Position numbers and translations under genes: made by a program. The notes beneath the pieces are model-generated. The model was not told the DNA's origin. It did not search any database and saw only the letters and a list, made by a program, of their open reading frames with translations. A stretch of DNA of 64,000 nucleotides, from contig NZ_QYUR01000002.1 of the NCBI RefSeq assembly GCF_003596405.1, positions 372,001 through 436,000 on the forward strand. Direction: 5' to 3'. Below, piece after piece: positions 38,324-51,442 of the stretch. Numbering within the stretch: position 1 is the first letter of the stretch; each line of letters opens with the position of its first letter. This DNA comes from Pseudomonas cavernicola (GTDB taxonomy: Bacteria; Pseudomonadota; Gammaproteobacteria; Pseudomonadales; Pseudomonadaceae).

Positions 38324-38522
38324 CAGGCTGCTGAGAAGCGTAGCGAGCGAAGGACAGGCAAGGCGCAACGCAGCGAAGCGGAGTAACAGCCAAAGGCTGG
38401 CCCGCTAGGGTGAGCGCAGCGAGTCAATCAGGCGAAGAGGCGCAGTTTACTGTGCGTAAATGAGCATTCTGAGCCTGCTTTCAACGCAGCATATCCGAGC
38501 GCAGTAGTTTCTCAACAGCCTG
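38324..38522. repeat. Long dispersed palindromic repeat, copy B
   Basis: About 199 bases bounded by CAGGCTGCTGAGAA and TTCTCAACAGCCTG. Internal shared blocks: GCGAGCGAAGGACAGGCAAGG, TGAGCATTCTGAGCCTG, TTTCAACGCAGCAT and GCAGTAGTTT. It lies between dxs and the cobalamin riboswitch and could fold into one long hairpin, so may insulate the two. Confidence 0.75.
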
Positions 38523-38539
38523 CGAGTTCCGCCGAGGTG

Positions 38540-38745
38540 CGCCTGATCCTGTCAGGCCTTAAACGGGAAGCCGGTGCGCTCGTATCACGAGCAATCCCGG
38601 CGCTGCCCCCGCAACGGTAATCGATCACAGCCTTTGCGCTGCATGCCAGATCAAGATGCCACTGGGATTTTCCTGGGAAGGCGATCGGGCAGGAAAGTTC
38701 GCTTTCGGTCGAGAGCCCGGAGACCGGCCCTGGTGGATGTGACTG
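38540..38745 (+). ncRNA. Cobalamin riboswitch, aptamer
   Basis: The B12-element core is visible: GGGAAGCCGGTG near 38565-38576, CCGGCGCTGCCCCCGCAACGG (about 38597-38617, the B12 box), and AGCCCGGAGACCGGCC near 38714-38729. It precedes the btuB gene by about 115 bases on the same strand. It should repress btuB when adenosylcobalamin is plentiful. Confidence 0.93.
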
Positions 38746-38752
38746 GTGTTGC

Positions 38753-38860: not shown

Positions 38861-40774
38861 ATGAAGTTGTCCCGTCTCGCCCTGGCTGCGGTGCTCTTAC
38901 CGCTGACCAGCCAGGCCGAAGAATTCAGCGAACCTGGCGATGCGCTGAAACTCCCGCCGCTGGTGATCACCTCGGGTCGTGTGGCCGAACCACTGAGCAA
39001 AGCCACTGCGGCAACCAGCGTCTTCACGCGCGAAGATATCGACCGCCTGCAACCCAGCTCGATCACCGAACTGCTGACCCGCGTGCCCGGCGTACAAGTC
39101 GTGCAGAACGGTGGCCGCGGCAGCACTGCCTCAGTTTTGATCCGCGGCACGGGCAATACGCAGAGCCTGGTGCTGGTGGATGGCCAACGCATTGGCTCGG
39201 CATCCGATGGCGGCGCCAGCCTGCAATACCTCAGCATTGAGCAGATCGAGCGCGTCGAAGTGGTACGCGGCTCGCGCTCCGCGCTGTACGGTAGCGATGC
39301 CATCGGCGGAGTGATCCAGATTTTCACCCGCCGCGGCGAGCAGGGTCTGCAGCCGCGTCTGCATCTGGGCGCCGGTAGCAACAACACTTGGGAGCGCAGC
39401 CTGGGGCTTGCCGGTGGCGATCAGCAGACCCGTTTCAGCCTCAACACCAGCCTCGACGAAACCGCCGGCATCGACCGCACAGGGCCCTCCTTCGACTCCG
39501 ACGCGGATCACGATGCTTACCGCAACAAGGCGCTGAGCTTCAATCTCAGCCATCAGCTCAATGAACAGCTGGAGACCGGGCTCAGCGTACTGGACCAGCG
39601 TGGCCGCAGCGAATTCGACAACCCTTTTGGCCGCTTCGACATGGCCACCTTCCAGAGTTTTCCACAGCAGCCCTCCAGCGACTTCACCCTGAGCGCCGCT
39701 TCCGGCTTCGTCGATGCCCAGCTCAGTGATGCCTGGAACAGCCGCCTGGAACTCGGCCACAGCGAAAACCGCCAGCAAAGCCAGGACAAGCTGAGCGACG
39801 AACACAACGTGTTCAACACCTACCGCGACTCGGCGAGCTGGCTCAACACCCTCCAGTTGAACGACAGCCACAGCCTGCTGCTCGGCGCCGACTGGTATGA
39901 GGACCAACTGCACAGCACCACCGCCTTCGACCAGCAAAGCCGCTGGAACCAGGCCGCGTTCATCCAGCACCGTTTCCAGGGCGAGCTTTTCTCCACCGAA
40001 CTGGGCCTGCGGCATGACCAAAACCAGCAGTTCGGCAGCCAGAACAGCTGGAACACCGCCGTGACCGTGCCGCTGGCTGACTCCGCTATCGACCTGATCG
40101 CCTCCTACAGCGAGGGCTTCCGCGCGCCGACCTTCAACGAGCTGTATTGGCCCAACGACGGCAATGGCTACATCGGCAATCCGGATCTCGAACCCGAGCA
40201 TTCGCGCAACTACGAGGTGCAGCTGCGTGGTGAGCATTGGGATACGCGCTGGAGCCTGGCGGCCTATCGCAACGAGGTACGCGACCTGATCAGCACCGAG
40301 CTCTACGACCCGATCAACTACATCTACCGTGCGGTCAACCTCAACACCGCGCGCCTGCAGGGGCTCGAGCTCAGCCTCGAACGCAATGTGCTGGGTTGGC
40401 GCGCCTCGGCCAATGCCAGCCTGCTCGACCCACGCGACACGGAAAGCGGACATACCCTACCGCGCCGAGCTCGCCGTACGCTGAGCCTGGATCTGGACCG
40501 CCAGTTCGGCGCCTTCGGTGTCGGCGCCACATGGCAGGCCATCAATTCGAGCTACGACGATGTCGGCAACACCCGACGCATCGCCGGCTATGGCCTACTC
40601 GGACTGCGCGGCAGTTGGCAGGCCAGCGACGAAGTAACGCTGGATTTGAAACTGAGCAATGCCCTGGACAAGGATTACAGCCGTGCCCTCTATGCCTATC
40701 AGCGGGTGAACTACGCCTACCAGGAAGAAGGTCGAGCGCTACTGTTCGGCTTCACCTGGACACCGAACCTGTAA
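38861..40774 (+). CDS. btuB: TonB-dependent vitamin B12 receptor BtuB
   Basis: A 637-residue outer-membrane receptor for cobalamin. Signal peptide about 1-19, TonB box around LVITSGR (about 33-39), plug domain with LIRGTGNTQSLVLVDGQRIG and VEVVRGSRSALYGSDAIGGVIQI, then a 22-strand barrel. It is behind a cobalamin riboswitch and next to btuF, which supports the substrate. Its last residue is Leu (TWTPNL) rather than the usual aromatic. Confidence 0.93.
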   Translation: MKLSRLALAAVLLPLTSQAEEFSEPGDALKLPPLVITSGRVAEPLSKATAATSVFTREDIDRLQPSSITELLTRVPGVQVVQNGGRGSTASVLIRGTGNTQSLVLVDGQRIGSASDGGASLQYLSIEQIERVEVVRGSRSALYGSDAIGGVIQIFTRRGEQGLQPRLHLGAGSNNTWERSLGLAGGDQQTRFSLNTSLDETAGIDRTGPSFDSDADHDAYRNKALSFNLSHQLNEQLETGLSVLDQRGRSEFDNPFGRFDMATFQSFPQQPSSDFTLSAASGFVDAQLSDAWNSRLELGHSENRQQSQDKLSDEHNVFNTYRDSASWLNTLQLNDSHSLLLGADWYEDQLHSTTAFDQQSRWNQAAFIQHRFQGELFSTELGLRHDQNQQFGSQNSWNTAVTVPLADSAIDLIASYSEGFRAPTFNELYWPNDGNGYIGNPDLEPEHSRNYEVQLRGEHWDTRWSLAAYRNEVRDLISTELYDPINYIYRAVNLNTARLQGLELSLERNVLGWRASANASLLDPRDTESGHTLPRRARRTLSLDLDRQFGAFGVGATWQAINSSYDDVGNTRRIAGYGLLGLRGSWQASDEVTLDLKLSNALDKDYSRALYAYQRVNYAYQEEGRALLFGFTWTPNL

Positions 40775-40776
40775 GC

Positions 40777-40909
40777 GTAGGTTGGTGCTGAGCGAAGGCG
40801 ATGCCCAACAACCGGCCTGCAAGGCCGGGCGGTCAAACTCGGGGCCGGTTGTATAGGGAGTCGCAGGGCGACTCCTTGTTGGGCATCGCTGCGCTCAGCG
40901 CCAACCTAC
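40777..40909. repeat. REP-like palindrome (GTAGGTTGG family), copy 2
   Basis: Begins three bases after the btuB stop. Outer arms GTAGGTTGGTGCTGAGCG and CGCTCAGCGCCAACCTAC, inner arms CGATGCCCAACAA / TTGTTGGGCATCG, and two central hairpins (CCGGCCTGCAAGGCCGG; GGAGTCGC-AGG-GCGACTCC). It contains an intact copy of the IS110 target site at 40901-40912. Confidence 0.85.
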
Positions 40910-40944
40910 GGGACAGTCGTTTGCTTGCGATGCTGCGCAAAACT

Positions 40945-41076
40945 GTAGGTTGGTGCTGAGCCGAAGGCGATGCCCAACAACCGGCCTGCAAGGCCGGGCG
41001 GTCAAACTCGGGGCCGGTTGTATAGGGAGTCGCGAGGCGACTCCTTGTTGGGCATCACTGCGTTCAGCGCCAACCT
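40945..41076. repeat. REP-like palindrome, copy 3, split by IS110
   Basis: Almost identical to copy 2 and in tandem with it (35-base gap). Its right arm stops at CGCCAACCT (41076) and resumes as CTACGGGAC at 42357, after the IS110 element. Confidence 0.85.
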
Positions 41077-41109
41077 TGTATGTTGTTTTCCGTCAACCGG
41101 GTTAGCCTT

Positions 41110-41285
41110 TCAGGCCCTGCGCTTGACGCAGAGAAGCAGTTACTGGGGAGGCCGTTCCAACCTGGAGGTGAGTTCACACTCAACCTCGTCCGTAGATCGG
41201 CCCCCCGCCTCATTGCCCACCGCGTGGAGTATCCGGAAGCCAGCTCATTGAGGTGGACTTCGCATCACAAGGTTGCAGCGGCAAG
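41110..41285 (+). ncRNA. Predicted IS110 bridge RNA
   Basis: In the left end of the element. A 5' stem-loop (CTGCG-CGCAG, 41117-41131) is followed by a target loop: CCAACCT (41157-41163) equals the left target, then hairpin GAGGTGAGT / ACTCAACCTC (41165-41187), then CCGTAG (41190-41195), complement of right target CTACGG. A donor loop follows: GAGTATC (41227-41233) equals the right end of the element (42351-42357), then hairpin GAAGCCA / TGGACTTC (41236-41261), then ACAAG (41267-41271), complement of CTTGT at the left junction (41075-41079). This is the known bridge-RNA order. Ends are approximate. Confidence 0.75.
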
Positions 41286-41336
41286 AAGTGCGAGGTCGGG
41301 GAACCGGTAGCTATTGTTGCTCAAATGCCGGGCGAG

Positions 41337-42341
41337 ATGAAAACAATGAGCGTATTTGTCGGTGTGGATGTGGGTGCCAAGACAGTTGTCTTGGCATGGC
41401 GAAAGGGTGGTCGCACGCGGGGCAAGCTGGACATCCAGCAAACGCCCGAGGGTCACGCCCAGGCGGTGGAGCGGATTAAAGCGCTAAAAGCCGTCCAAGT
41501 CGTGATGGAGGCCACCGGCGTTTACTACTTGGACTTGGCCGTTGCCTTGAGCAAGGCCGGGATCGTCGTGTCTGTCATCAACCCCAAAAGCTTCCACCAC
41601 TTTGCCCAACTCAAGTTGGCGCAAAGCAAGACCGACCCGCTAGACGCGGCCCTCCTGGCCGAGTACGCCGAGCGGATGACGCCAGCCCCTTGGACTGCGC
41701 CGGATACCCTCCGTATGGCGCTGCGTGACATCGGCCGACAAATCAATCGGCTGACCGCGACCCGTACACAAGCCAAGAACCGCCTGCACGCCTTGCGCTC
41801 CAAACGTGACACGCTGGCGCTGCTGATTGAAGACGAAGTTGAAGCGGTCGAGAGGCTGGATCAGCGCATCGAGCGACTCAGCAACGCTGCACAGCGCCTG
41901 ATTGCCGAGGACGCCGTGTTGAACAGTCAGTTTCAGCATCTGCTGGCAGCCAAAGGTGTTGGCGTTGCCAGTGCTATTGCGTTACTGGCTGAACTCAGTG
42001 TCCTGCCCCAGCATCTGAAGGCGCCGCAAGTCAGTCGCTATGCCGGGCTAGATATCCGCCTGTGCCAATCGGGCAGTAGCGTCAATAAGGCTTCACGGCT
42101 GAGCAAGGCGGGTAATGCCTATCTACGAAGCGCCCTCTACATGCCGGCACTGAGCGCGGTACGACATGACCCAAACGCCAAGGCCTTCTACCTGTCCCTA
42201 CAACGCCGTGGCAAAAAGAAAATACAGGCCGTGTGCGCCGTCATGCGCAAGTACCTGACCGGGCTTTGGGCTTGCATCCAACTGGGCGAACCCTTCGACT
42301 CCAGCAAGCTATTCAGCAAAATCCATCTGGCTGAAGCTTGA
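41337..42341 (+). CDS. IS110-family transposase (recombinase)
   Basis: A 334-residue DEDD/serine recombinase. N-terminal RuvC-like part: GVDVGAKTVVLAWR (first Asp), VVMEATGVYYLDLA (Glu), SKTDPLDAALLAEYAER (Asp pair). A coiled-coil linker lies at about 150-195. The C-terminal Tnp domain has QSGSSVNKASRLSKAGNAYLRSALYMPAL, holding the predicted catalytic serine. Starts at ATG 41337 or 41346; the open frame upstream belongs to the noncoding end. It seems intact, so the element could be active. Confidence 0.93.
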   Translation: MKTMSVFVGVDVGAKTVVLAWRKGGRTRGKLDIQQTPEGHAQAVERIKALKAVQVVMEATGVYYLDLAVALSKAGIVVSVINPKSFHHFAQLKLAQSKTDPLDAALLAEYAERMTPAPWTAPDTLRMALRDIGRQINRLTATRTQAKNRLHALRSKRDTLALLIEDEVEAVERLDQRIERLSNAAQRLIAEDAVLNSQFQHLLAAKGVGVASAIALLAELSVLPQHLKAPQVSRYAGLDIRLCQSGSSVNKASRLSKAGNAYLRSALYMPALSAVRHDPNAKAFYLSLQRRGKKKIQAVCAVMRKYLTGLWACIQLGEPFDSSKLFSKIHLAEA

Positions 42342-42356
42342 CGTCCAACAGAGTAT

Positions 42357-43154
42357 CTACGGGACGCGACTCAGCTGTTGGCAGAGTTTTTCCGTCGCAT
42401 CCAACATCTGCAAGCTGGGCCGCTCCAGGCCCTTATCCGGAATCACCCAGACTTGTCGACGTTGCACCGCCGTCAGTTGTGGCCAGGCTTGCCACGCGGC
42501 GGCCAGACCCGGCGAGCTGAGTAGAATCACCTGCGGATCACGCGCCAGCACTGCCTCGACACTGACCTGCGGCGCCGGCAGTGGCAAATCGTCGAACACG
42601 TTCTCGGCGCCACAAACACGCAGCGCATCGCCGATGATCTGCCGGCTACCGATGGTATAGAGCGGCGTATCCCAGATCTGATAGAACACCCGCAGCGGCA
42701 CTGCGCGCCGATAACGCTGACGCAGTTCGCTCAGGCGCGCCTGGAAGCCTGCCGCCAACTGCTCGGCACGCTGCGCACGATCGAGACGGTGACCGAGTTC
42801 AAGCACTTGTTGGCCGAGCTCCTCCAGGCTGTGCGGTTCGGCTTCATACAGCGCAATGCCGAAGCGTTTTAGCTGCTCGCGCTGGCTGGCGCTGACGCTG
42901 TCCGGCCAGAGCAGGAGCAGGTCAGGCTTGAGCGCCAGCAGGCTTTCCAATTCAAGCTGGCCATAACGCCCGACCGAGGGCAGATGCGCCAGCGCGGCCG
43001 GACGCTCGCCACCATCCAGCACGCCGACCAGCAGGCCTGCGGCATCCAGCTCCAGCATGATTTCACTAAGGGACGGCGCCAGGCTGACCACCCGTTCGAA
43101 CGCTGCCGCCGGCCAAGCCAGCGCCAGTAGCAAACAGGCTAGCAGCGGGCGCAT
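42357..43154 (-). CDS. btuF: Cobalamin-binding periplasmic protein BtuF
   Basis: A 265-residue substrate-binding protein. Signal peptide [18 protein letters not shown], then FERVVSLAPSLSEIMLELDAAG, GVLDGG and KPDLLLLW, the class III (BtuF/FhuD) pattern, and the C-terminal DPQVILLSSPG. It passes B12 from BtuB to the BtuCD transporter, which is not in the window. The ATG at 43152-43154 overlaps the end of the next gene upstream. Its stop codon TAG (42357-42359) lies on the IS110 junction and was preserved by the CT core. Confidence 0.88.
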   Translation of the reverse strand: MRPLLACLLLALAWPAAAFERVVSLAPSLSEIMLELDAAGLLVGVLDGGERPAALAHLPSVGRYGQLELESLLALKPDLLLLWPDSVSASQREQLKRFGIALYEAEPHSLEELGQQVLELGHRLDRAQRAEQLAAGFQARLSELRQRYRRAVPLRVFYQIWDTPLYTIGSRQIIGDALRVCGAENVFDDLPLPAPQVSVEAVLARDPQVILLSSPGLAAAWQAWPQLTAVQRRQVWVIPDKGLERPSLQMLDATEKLCQQLSRVP

Positions 43155-44311: not shown

Positions 44312-45190
44312 TCAGCCAAGCCAGCCGACGACAATCCGCGCGGCAGAGGCCACCACGTCATTGCGCGCTTTGGCATCCTGCGCCTGTTGCGTCACGTAGA
44401 CAGCCACCACCACGGGCGCCCGTTGCGGCGGCCAGAGCACGGCGATGTCGTTGGTCGTGCCGTAGTCACCGGTACCGGTTTTATCGCCGACTTGCCACGC
44501 AGAGGGAACGCCGGCGCGAATGCGAGTGGCACCGGTGGTGTTGCCGCGCAACCAGGTCTGCAACTGCTCGCGCTGCGGGGCCTGCAGCGCGTCGCCCAGC
44601 GCCAGCCGTTGCACGCTGCGCCCCATGGCCTCGGGGGTTGAGGTGTCGCGGGGGTCGCCGGGTATCGCGGTGTTGAGGTCGGTTTCCCAGCGGTCGAGAC
44701 GGAATTCAGCATCGCCAATCGAGCGCGCGTAAGCCGTAACGCCAGCCGGGCCGCCCAGCAACTTCATCAACAGATTGGAGGCGGTGTTGTCGCTGTACTG
44801 GACCGCCGCCGCACACAGCTCGGCGACCGTCATGCCGGTTTCGAGGTGTTTTTCGCTGATCGGCGAATAGCTGACCAGATCGCGCTTAATGTACTGGATG
44901 CGCTGCTGCATGAGCCCTGGCGTCTGCGTACTGCGCTGCAGAATGGCCGCGGCCAGCAGCACCTTGAACGTGCTGCACACGGGAAAACGCTCGGTGGCGC
45001 GGTAACCAAGCTGCGCGCCATGGCCTGTGTTCAATGCGAACAGACCAAGGCGACCGTTGAAGGCGCGTTCGAGTTGCTGGAGCTGCAGGTGAGCCGATGC
45101 GGCATCGGGCCTGGCAGCGGCCCAGGCGCTGGCAAAAGGAAGCGCGGCTGCGGCCAGGAGGAATGTCCGGCGGCTCGGAGAATGACCCAT
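44312..45190 (-). CDS. bla: Class A beta-lactamase, Tat-exported
   Basis: A 292-residue class A serine beta-lactamase. [15 protein letters not shown] near the N terminus is a twin-arginine signal. Active-site motifs: STFK at 73-76, SDN at 133-135, ETDLN at 169-173 (omega loop) and KTG at 237-239. Overall closest in style to the CTX-M/Pen type ([28 protein letters not shown]), with a Cys before STFK. Spectrum cannot be read from sequence. No ampR-type regulator or mobile element adjoins it. ATG 45188-45190 chosen over the open extension. Confidence 0.92.
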
Positions 45191-45204
45191 CGCCAGGGAA
45201 CCCT

Positions 45205-45864
45205 TTACAGTTTGGATTCGAGAATCAGCACGCCCTGCTCCTCGCGCCAACTCACACGATTGAGGAAGCTCATGCCGAGCAACGCCTCGGTCGGCGCATC
45301 GCCTTCCATCACCGCGGCCTCCACCCCGAGTAATTCCAGGGCACCGACCTTGACCCGGTCGAGCTTGATGCGCCAGGCCTTGGCCGTGCCGCTGGCGGTG
45401 CTGACCATCATCGGCTGGCCCTCCATCCGATAATCAATCCCCAGGCGCTTGGCCTGGGCATCGTTCAGCGCGATGGAGGTGGCGCCGGTATCGACCAGAA
45501 ACTGCACCGGCTGACCACCGATCGAGCCGGCCACCCAGTAGTGCCCACCGATGCCTTTGGCGATGCTCAACTGCGTCTTAGTCGGCGCGGCAAAGCCTTC
45601 GCTGTATTCGCGACTGAGGCTATAGGCGCGCTCCACGCCATCCACCCGCAATACCGCGCCGTGACTGTTGGCGCTGACAACCATCACTCCGCCCGGGCCG
45701 GTCTGGCCGACTTTCACCAGCTTGCGCTGGCCATCGACATTCAGCACCGCGGCCCCCGGGAACAGGCCGACCACCTGCACTTGAGGCGCGGCCCAGAGCG
45801 CAGGGGCGGAGAGCAGATTGGCAGCGACCAGCAACACAGCAGCAAGCAGGTTAAGGCGACGCAT
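45205..45864 (-). CDS. Retropepsin-like aspartic protease, clan AA
   Basis: A 219-residue secreted or periplasmic protein. Signal peptide about 1-25 (ending ALWAA). The protease domain starts at about 110: [15 protein letters not shown] (active Asp125), then a hydrophobic FLNRVSW at the C-terminal strand. A single DTG means it should work as a dimer, like retropepsins (TIGR02281 type). Residues 28-90 form a separate small beta-rich part, perhaps regulatory. Function in Pseudomonas unknown. Start ATG 45862-45864. Confidence 0.85.
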
Positions 45865-51064: not shown

Positions 51065-51225
51065 GGGACCTCCCGAACCTGCTTCAGGCCATGGCGCGCC
51101 AGCGCGGCGCGGGCCGTTTGCACAGAATAAGACATCAATACGAACTCCTGTTTATGAAAAACAGGGCGTGTTGGATCGAAGGGGATTTTGCAAGCGCACA
51201 GTACCGGCGCCCAGGCAGGCAATCC

Positions 51226-51386
51226 CGTTCTCTCTTTATCCGGACTATGACCGTCGGCCCCGGAATCACACCGGGTCTGCTGACCTTGCCGCCCACCTGA
51301 ATAAGGACTGCGGCAAGCGCTCGCGGGCTATGCGCATTGCGCGCAATTACCGCCGGTGGGGAATCGCACCCCGCCCTGAGAACGCT
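51226..51386 (-). ncRNA. FMN riboswitch (RFN element)
   Basis: Read on the minus strand the element starts near 51386 with the hallmark CTCAGGGCGGGGTGCGATTC and ends near 51226 with AGTCCGGATAAAGAGAGAAC; in between are GCAGACCCGGTGTGATTCCG and GGCCGACGGTCATAG. All conserved RFN blocks are present. It lies between ribD and ribE, so it controls ribE and the genes after it (ribB, ribH, nusB...), not ribD. Confidence 0.95.
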
Positions 51387-51442
51387 ACAGCCATCTGCAT
51401 GACTGGGGCGCGTTTTACCACAGTCACCGGCTTAGCGCATCC

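Follow-up and report, generated by a model that had tools for sequence, protein, structure and literature searches.

IS621 is described as inserting at ATCAGGCCTAC in the REPs of E. coli (PMC11208160); the same account reports guide–target covariation over 5,511 pairs and, in some relatives of IS621, longer right guides. In many species REPs are reported to start with GTAG, GTAGGTTGGGCTGAGC... among them (PMC2817692). A 2006 paper described IS110 elements residing in REPs of Pseudomonas (PMC1525189), and a 2024 account presents one element pair as a case of natural redirection by guide change (PMC11187229).

Here we analyse an IS110-family element in a 64,000-nt stretch of Pseudomonas cavernicola DNA (the window). 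With high confidence, the left end of this element (41077-41336) is predicted from its sequence to encode an IS621-type bridge RNA, through which the transposase would be brought to REP-like palindromes, at their CCANC-CT-ACGG tip. The element and its immediate surroundings comprise the following.

40776-40911, no strand assigned: uninterrupted double palindrome made of two REP-like halves, with CCAACCTACGG at its end; it is homologous to the target and stands as an empty site.
40945-41076, no strand assigned: second palindrome copy, into which the element has inserted; its left target CCAACCT occupies 41070-41076 and the CT core 41075-41076.
41077-42356, plus strand: IS110-family insertion sequence, between the CT cores 41075-41076 and 42357-42358, its ends shared by 11 copies at 99-100% identity.
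41337-42341, plus strand: DEDD transposase/recombinase of 334 aa (Pfam PF01548 and PF02371; NCBIfam NF033542; PDB 9t56, 8wt6).
42357-42362, no strand assigned: core CT and right target ACGG, from the sequence and the copy junctions.

The transposase possesses both a DEDD RuvC-like domain and a C-terminal domain with a conserved serine (D11, E58, D100, D103 and S245, assigned by motif position), and scores above the cut-off of NCBIfam model NF033542. PDB relatives at E values up to 0.001 are limited to ISCro4 (9t56, 5.6e-45) and IS621 (8wt6, 5.7e-41), with whose DEDD motifs and SG serine its own align. A long non-coding left end lies upstream of the transposase gene and a CT core stands at each end, the arrangement of the IS110 group. 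The IS1111 layout (subterminal inverted repeats of 11-13 bp, long non-coding region downstream) does not apply, since the long non-coding region is upstream and a search of 41060-42400, which would miss an inverted repeat of 11 bp, gave none of at least 12 nt. In a tree of 25 of the 32 proteins (those of 280 aa or longer, ignoring the L081 row, which is not closely related), the window transposase falls beside L069, without strong support, and apart from the elements that share its genus; it reaches at most 70% identity, to L064 (Parahaliea). The element may already carry a name.

Against Rfam at gathering thresholds the left end has no match, only FMN and cobalamin riboswitches being listed, and we therefore built our own model of the left-end RNA. 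The cobalamin riboswitch (38518-38746) lies ahead of a TonB-dependent receptor-like ORF (38861-40774), which we take to be btuB-like, and the FMN riboswitch occupies 51223-51387 on the minus strand. A minus-strand ORF, 44312-45250, is presumably a class A beta-lactamase, which it resembles in its STFK, SDN and KTG motifs. A blastn search of an E. coli genome collection gave no match to the left end, and a plasmid search with the element returned one short match (125 nt at 74%, in a Vibrio record); comparison with IS621 hence draws on the papers, the RNA being compared through published descriptions instead of direct alignment.

A sequence-only reading of this DNA had proposed four guide segments, and all are present where it placed them: CCAACCT at 41157-41163, CCGTAG at 41190-41195, GAGTATC at 41227-41233 (and again at 42351-42357) and ACAAG at 41267-41271. 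Among 200,000 sequences from a first-order Markov control of the 260-nt left end, the four words occurred together once and in this order never. The order itself, a target loop followed by a predicted donor loop upstream of the transposase gene, agrees with that described for IS621 (PMC11208160, PMC11208158), as the same reading had held. The predicted RNA is laid out as below.

41145-41206, plus strand: target-binding loop of the predicted bridge RNA, with lower stem 41145-41153/41199-41206 and apical hairpin 41165-41187, from covariation and fold.
41155-41163, plus strand: left target guide UUCCAACCU, whose positions 3-9 equal the left target CCAACCT.
41190-41195, plus strand: right target guide CCGUAG, complementing CTACGG (present in 10 of 11 copies, with CTACGA in one; GG enriched).
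41196-41197, plus strand: predicted handshake bases AU, complementing the AT before the donor core and matching A81/U82 of IS621 as described.
41227-41233, plus strand: left donor guide GAGUAUC, equal to the right end 42351-42357 and invariant in 14 sequences.
41236-41261, plus strand: apical hairpin of the predicted donor-binding loop, nearly invariant and pairing in 100% of cells with letters.
41264-41271, plus strand: right donor guide AU[C]ACAAG, a discontiguous complement of CTTGTAT at the left end, comparable to the published IS621 guide.
41272-41273, plus strand: predicted handshake bases GU, complementing the AC of the left target and matching G166/U167 of IS621 as described.

The right donor guide had been given as ACAAG, which is present but falls short of the full extent: AT[C]ACAAG can pair along the whole of CTTGTAT (41075-41081) if one base is bulged, and the donor guide of IS621 is described as likewise discontiguous (PMC11208158). 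Bases lying 3' of the two right guides, AT (41196-41197) and GT (41272-41273), complement the donor and target bases that adjoin the core. An extended handshake, forming a longer complement of the left junction (ACAAGGTTG versus CAACCTTGT), was considered and rejected because GGTTG also occurs in relatives with other targets.

Folding 41105-41285 as a single sequence places both target guides within an internal loop (z -2.1; 6 of 200 shuffles fold at least equally well), with the donor guides only partly unpaired; the 260-nt left end folds no better than its shuffles (z -0.97, 39 of 200). The 5' stem-loop suggested earlier (CTGCG/CGCAG) forms in the first of these two folds and not in the 260-nt fold, and its region is unconserved in relatives. 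Covariation was scored, on a structure that we specified, over an alignment of 14 left ends (that of the window and 13 relatives). Here 99.1% of cells are paired, and both partners change in 10 of the 23 pairs; no shuffle of 500 reaches the observed value in four of five measures (8 of 500 do so in the fifth), and the signal is lost when the partner is slid. Nearly all of this support is carried by the target loop, where both partners change in 9 of the 15 pairs. The apical stem of the donor loop is paired wherever both sides have letters, and is devoid of covariation support because it hardly varies; RNAalifold gives the donor half another pairing, with a conserved downstream box. All four guides had been expected in internal loops: for the target guides this is borne out by fold and 14-sequence covariation, and for the donor loop, with its guide words present and invariant, its stem nearly so and its other pairing in RNAalifold, it is less certain.

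Beyond the bridge RNA, an alignment of 11 sequences shows strong conservation of a box at about 41286-41313, which reads AAGTGCGAGGTCGGGGAACCGGT in the window. This box can pair with donor-loop GACTTCGCAT, and the resulting fold would exclude the bridge fold. Such conservation, and the capacity to pair with the donor-loop stem, would suit a left-end RNA that acts mainly as a structured leader controlling transposase production, its guide role being secondary or lost in this copy. We judge this very improbable, for it leaves the matching of guides to targets unexplained; the two roles could also coexist.

Matching of guides to insertion sites extends, for the most part, to the relatives. Scanned with the left-end model, 9 of the 369 genomes from the class gave matches and 15 of the 398 from the family, and both counts include the own genome. 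From 72 model matches (69 sources) we tabulated 65, dropping five that repeat G020 places as well as L107 and L115, which have no usable left end; 63 rows have a left flank, L076 and L104 being without a recognised left junction. Left guide and own flank agree at four or more of positions 3-7 in 58 of the 63 insertions, and at all five in 44. The mean match is 5.37 of 7, versus 2.99 when permuted (0 of 20,000; 33 host/element groups, 23 different guides). Poor matches (three or fewer of positions 3-7) number 5 of 63, these being L046 (the nested copy, in G020), L079, L080, L101 and L103. On the right, the flank reads CTAC in 50 of 50 rows with both flanks (CT fixed by the search, AC free), and the right guide often fails past CTAC, for example in 7 of 7 G445 copies. 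The clade pairs a right guide that nearly always keeps GUAG with a left guide that differs between hosts, and a target loop whose left and right guides match the insertion site, a feature of the IS621-type bridge RNA, is present. At L104:1501-1633 (minus strand) the right guide reads GGAG, where the other tabulated relatives have GTAG. L046:1971-2390 (minus strand) contains two left ends 286 nt apart, one copy lying inside the start of the other's transposase gene; the left flank of the nested copy mismatches its own guide.

These relatives also bear on whether the transposase protein alone recognises the repeat tips, the guide-like words being a by-product of shared ancestry. The C-CT-AC common to many targets could be read by a protein, and left-guide positions 7-9 vary too little to be informative. 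However, guide and flank vary together at each of positions 2-6, where 0 or 1 of 2,000 permutations reach the observed value (position 1 is weak, reached by 138 of 2,000), and one well supported clade contains four transposases whose guides all differ, each with matching flanks. Recognition by protein alone is therefore highly unlikely in our view.

Within the own assembly (5.63 Mb, 8 contigs) there are at least 11 copies of the element at 99-100% identity, from 40 of 46 candidates scored. All 11 copies found sit at CCA[A/C/G]CCT^ACG[G/A], with left junctions of CCAACCT in 8, CCACCCT in 2 and CCAGCCT in 1, and right junctions of CTACGG in 10 and CTACGA in 1. Left-guide position 1 mismatches in 11 of 11 and position 2 in 9 of 11. 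Copies at unrelated sites, which would have spoken against a programmed target, were sought and none was seen; the other 10 copies found share the target motif. Their sites belong to different repeats with a common tip. The 135-bp double palindrome adjoining the window copy recurs at nearly full length in 41 or more genomic places (of 134 candidates, 40 were scored), its intact form being 97% identical to the interrupted one over 115 nt; further copies occupy the GGTGGGCTGAAGCCCACC repeat (L003) and the GGATTA...TAATCC repeat (L006). Because 11 nearly identical copies lie at matching sites, the RNA is probably functional, which supports the earlier claim of a working RNA with its own target.

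Empty sites provide a background for this distribution. Empty CCANCCTACGG sites number 119 (9 in the reversed control), and 14 of the 119 equal CCAACCTACGG. The guide's A at position 6 is found in 7 of 10 ACGG copies versus 14 of 119 empty CCANCCTACGG sites (one-sided Fisher p=1.0e-4; this and the other site-preference p-values assume independent copies, and overstate the evidence if the copies are not independent). Over the whole genome there are 165 CCAACCTAC sites (control 26), of which 14 continue with GG, whereas GG follows the target in 7 of 8 CCAACCT copies (p=1.1e-6). As the insertion sites are biased to GG, the two RNA bases before GUAG appear to be read, and the right guide of this element appears, by sequence, to read six bases. 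CCACCCTAC is commoner (254) than CCAACCTAC, yet of the 10 copies at one or other of the two tips, 8 are at CCAACCT (p=0.013). The in-genome counts predict less recombination at CCACCCTACGG, at CCAGCCTACGG or at CCAACCTAC without GG than at CCAACCTACGG, and new insertions are predicted at sites related to CCANCCTAC. Spread of the 11 copies by recombination between repeats, without RNA-guided insertion, would fit their near identity and their location in repeats but is scarcely credible, given flanks that differ per copy, different repeat families, a junction always at the same base and a bias to guide-matching sites that it would not lead one to expect.

The targets are tips of REP-like palindromes, and the 11 copies found lie mostly at palindromic-repeat tips. 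CTAC is the complement of GTAG, the REP foot, and the target repeat is REP-like in being palindromic, in standing on a GTAG foot and in its abundance, with 41 or more near-full-length places. Intact palindrome halves fold as GTTGG/CCAAC hairpins that leave the GTAG or CTAC end free; the half at the insertion itself folds weakly alone (z -0.37). In many relatives the left flank finishes within the 3' arm of a short palindrome, for example CGGGCTGAAGCCCG-ACCT and GCGGCTAAAGCCGC-TCCT. In a 26-nt hairpin test, 21 of 59 left flanks fall within the best 5% of windows in their own locus, a result that is only partial because the long palindromes of the own genome are missed.

We counted five guide-predicted 9-mers in 17 genomes, with own 9-mers in 13 of the 17 (G597, G912, G914 and G915 excepted). 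Guide-derived 9-mers exceed the reversed control more than 1.5-fold in 9 of 13 own-host pairs versus 6 of 72 other pairs (Mann-Whitney p=8.9e-6), the own-host enrichment being absent, among the 13 hosts, in G034, G338, G664 and G913. In G034 the same stem stands on a GTGG foot (CGCTCCCAC, seen 60 times in 200 kb where 2.8 are expected, and ranking first of 1,024), and in G664 the top repeat has CCAAC though the guide reads CCACC, 1 of 3 tabulated copies being at CCAACCT. The G034 rows (L124-L133) include two tabulated copies on CTAC feet, although the commonest repeat tip there has a GTGG foot. For the own genome, a 200-kb sample gives no excess of the target 9-mer (1 seen versus 1.3 expected), and the whole genome does (165 versus 26); in 200-kb samples the repeat that matches the guide is the top-ranking one in G445 and the second in G020. 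By sequence, then, the left guide seems often, not always, to match a host-abundant repeat (9 of 13 tested hosts).

A cycle for the element can be proposed around a putative promoter split between its two ends.

41079-41084, plus strand: predicted -10 box TATGTT of a circle-junction promoter, left-end half, from the sequence.
42338-42343, plus strand: predicted -35 box TTGACG of the circle-junction promoter, right-end half, 17 nt from TATGTT once the ends are joined.

The element would excise as a circle, and its joined ends would form the promoter TTGACG-17 nt-TATGTT, transcribing the left-end RNA. The transposase would hold this bridge RNA, whose donor loop would read the circle junction GAGTAT-CT-TGTAT and whose target loop would read the repeat tip, with strand exchange at the CT core. 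Expression, binding and catalysis are here supposed by analogy with IS621; the guides, insertion sites, covariation and copy distribution to which the scheme is fitted are read from the DNA itself. The predicted TTGACG-17 nt-TATGTT junction is common to the window element and its close relatives, and the TTGAC/TATGTT junction is absent from the distant sub-clade L105-L110.

A wider reading, which we hold to have an even chance of being right, is that of a broad REP-dedicated clade of RNA-guided recombinases, in which one half of the target loop stays fixed on the GTAG foot that REPs share and the other half is rewritten per host, copying the stem of the host REP. If so, one parasite would follow another, and guide rewriting would be a route to change host without hitting genes. 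The left guides of relatives, which differ by host and often match host repeats, would make natural bridge-RNA retargeting testable host by host; the own genome, with its preference for guide-matching sites over abundant near-matches, is a natural experiment on guide programming. The element also adds another transposase–RNA pair for recombination assays.

As described, IS621 shares with this element the CT core, the donor sequence CTTGTAT, the handshake bases and junction promoter predicted here, a related transposase and insertion in REPs at ...CCTAC. Differences lie in the target, here CCANCCTACGG, in a right guide whose predicted pairing spans six bases in 10 of the 11 copies found, and in a diverged transposase (E=5.7e-41). 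The ISCro4 transposase (PDB 9t56) is the closest solved relative by sequence (E=5.6e-45), in a comparison of the proteins. ISPpu9, ISPpu10 and ISPa11 of Pseudomonas, likened here by description, are IS110-family elements at a fixed point of host REPs, as is this element; they use other REPs, and ISPa11 is of IS1111 type (PMC1525189, PMC11187229). The seekRNA of IS1111/IS110 elements is likewise described as a guide RNA from a long non-coding region, which in the IS1111 types, unlike here, lies downstream and is accompanied by subterminal inverted repeats (PMC11187229). Titles, abstract openings and passages of the literature, preprints excluded, gave no account of host tracking of REPs by bridge RNAs. 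Since REP targeting by IS621 and guide–target covariation are already published, the element joins a known kind of system, to which it brings an in-genome preference set against an empty-site background, a six-base right guide as read from sequence, and a target loop with a constant GUAG half and a changing half.
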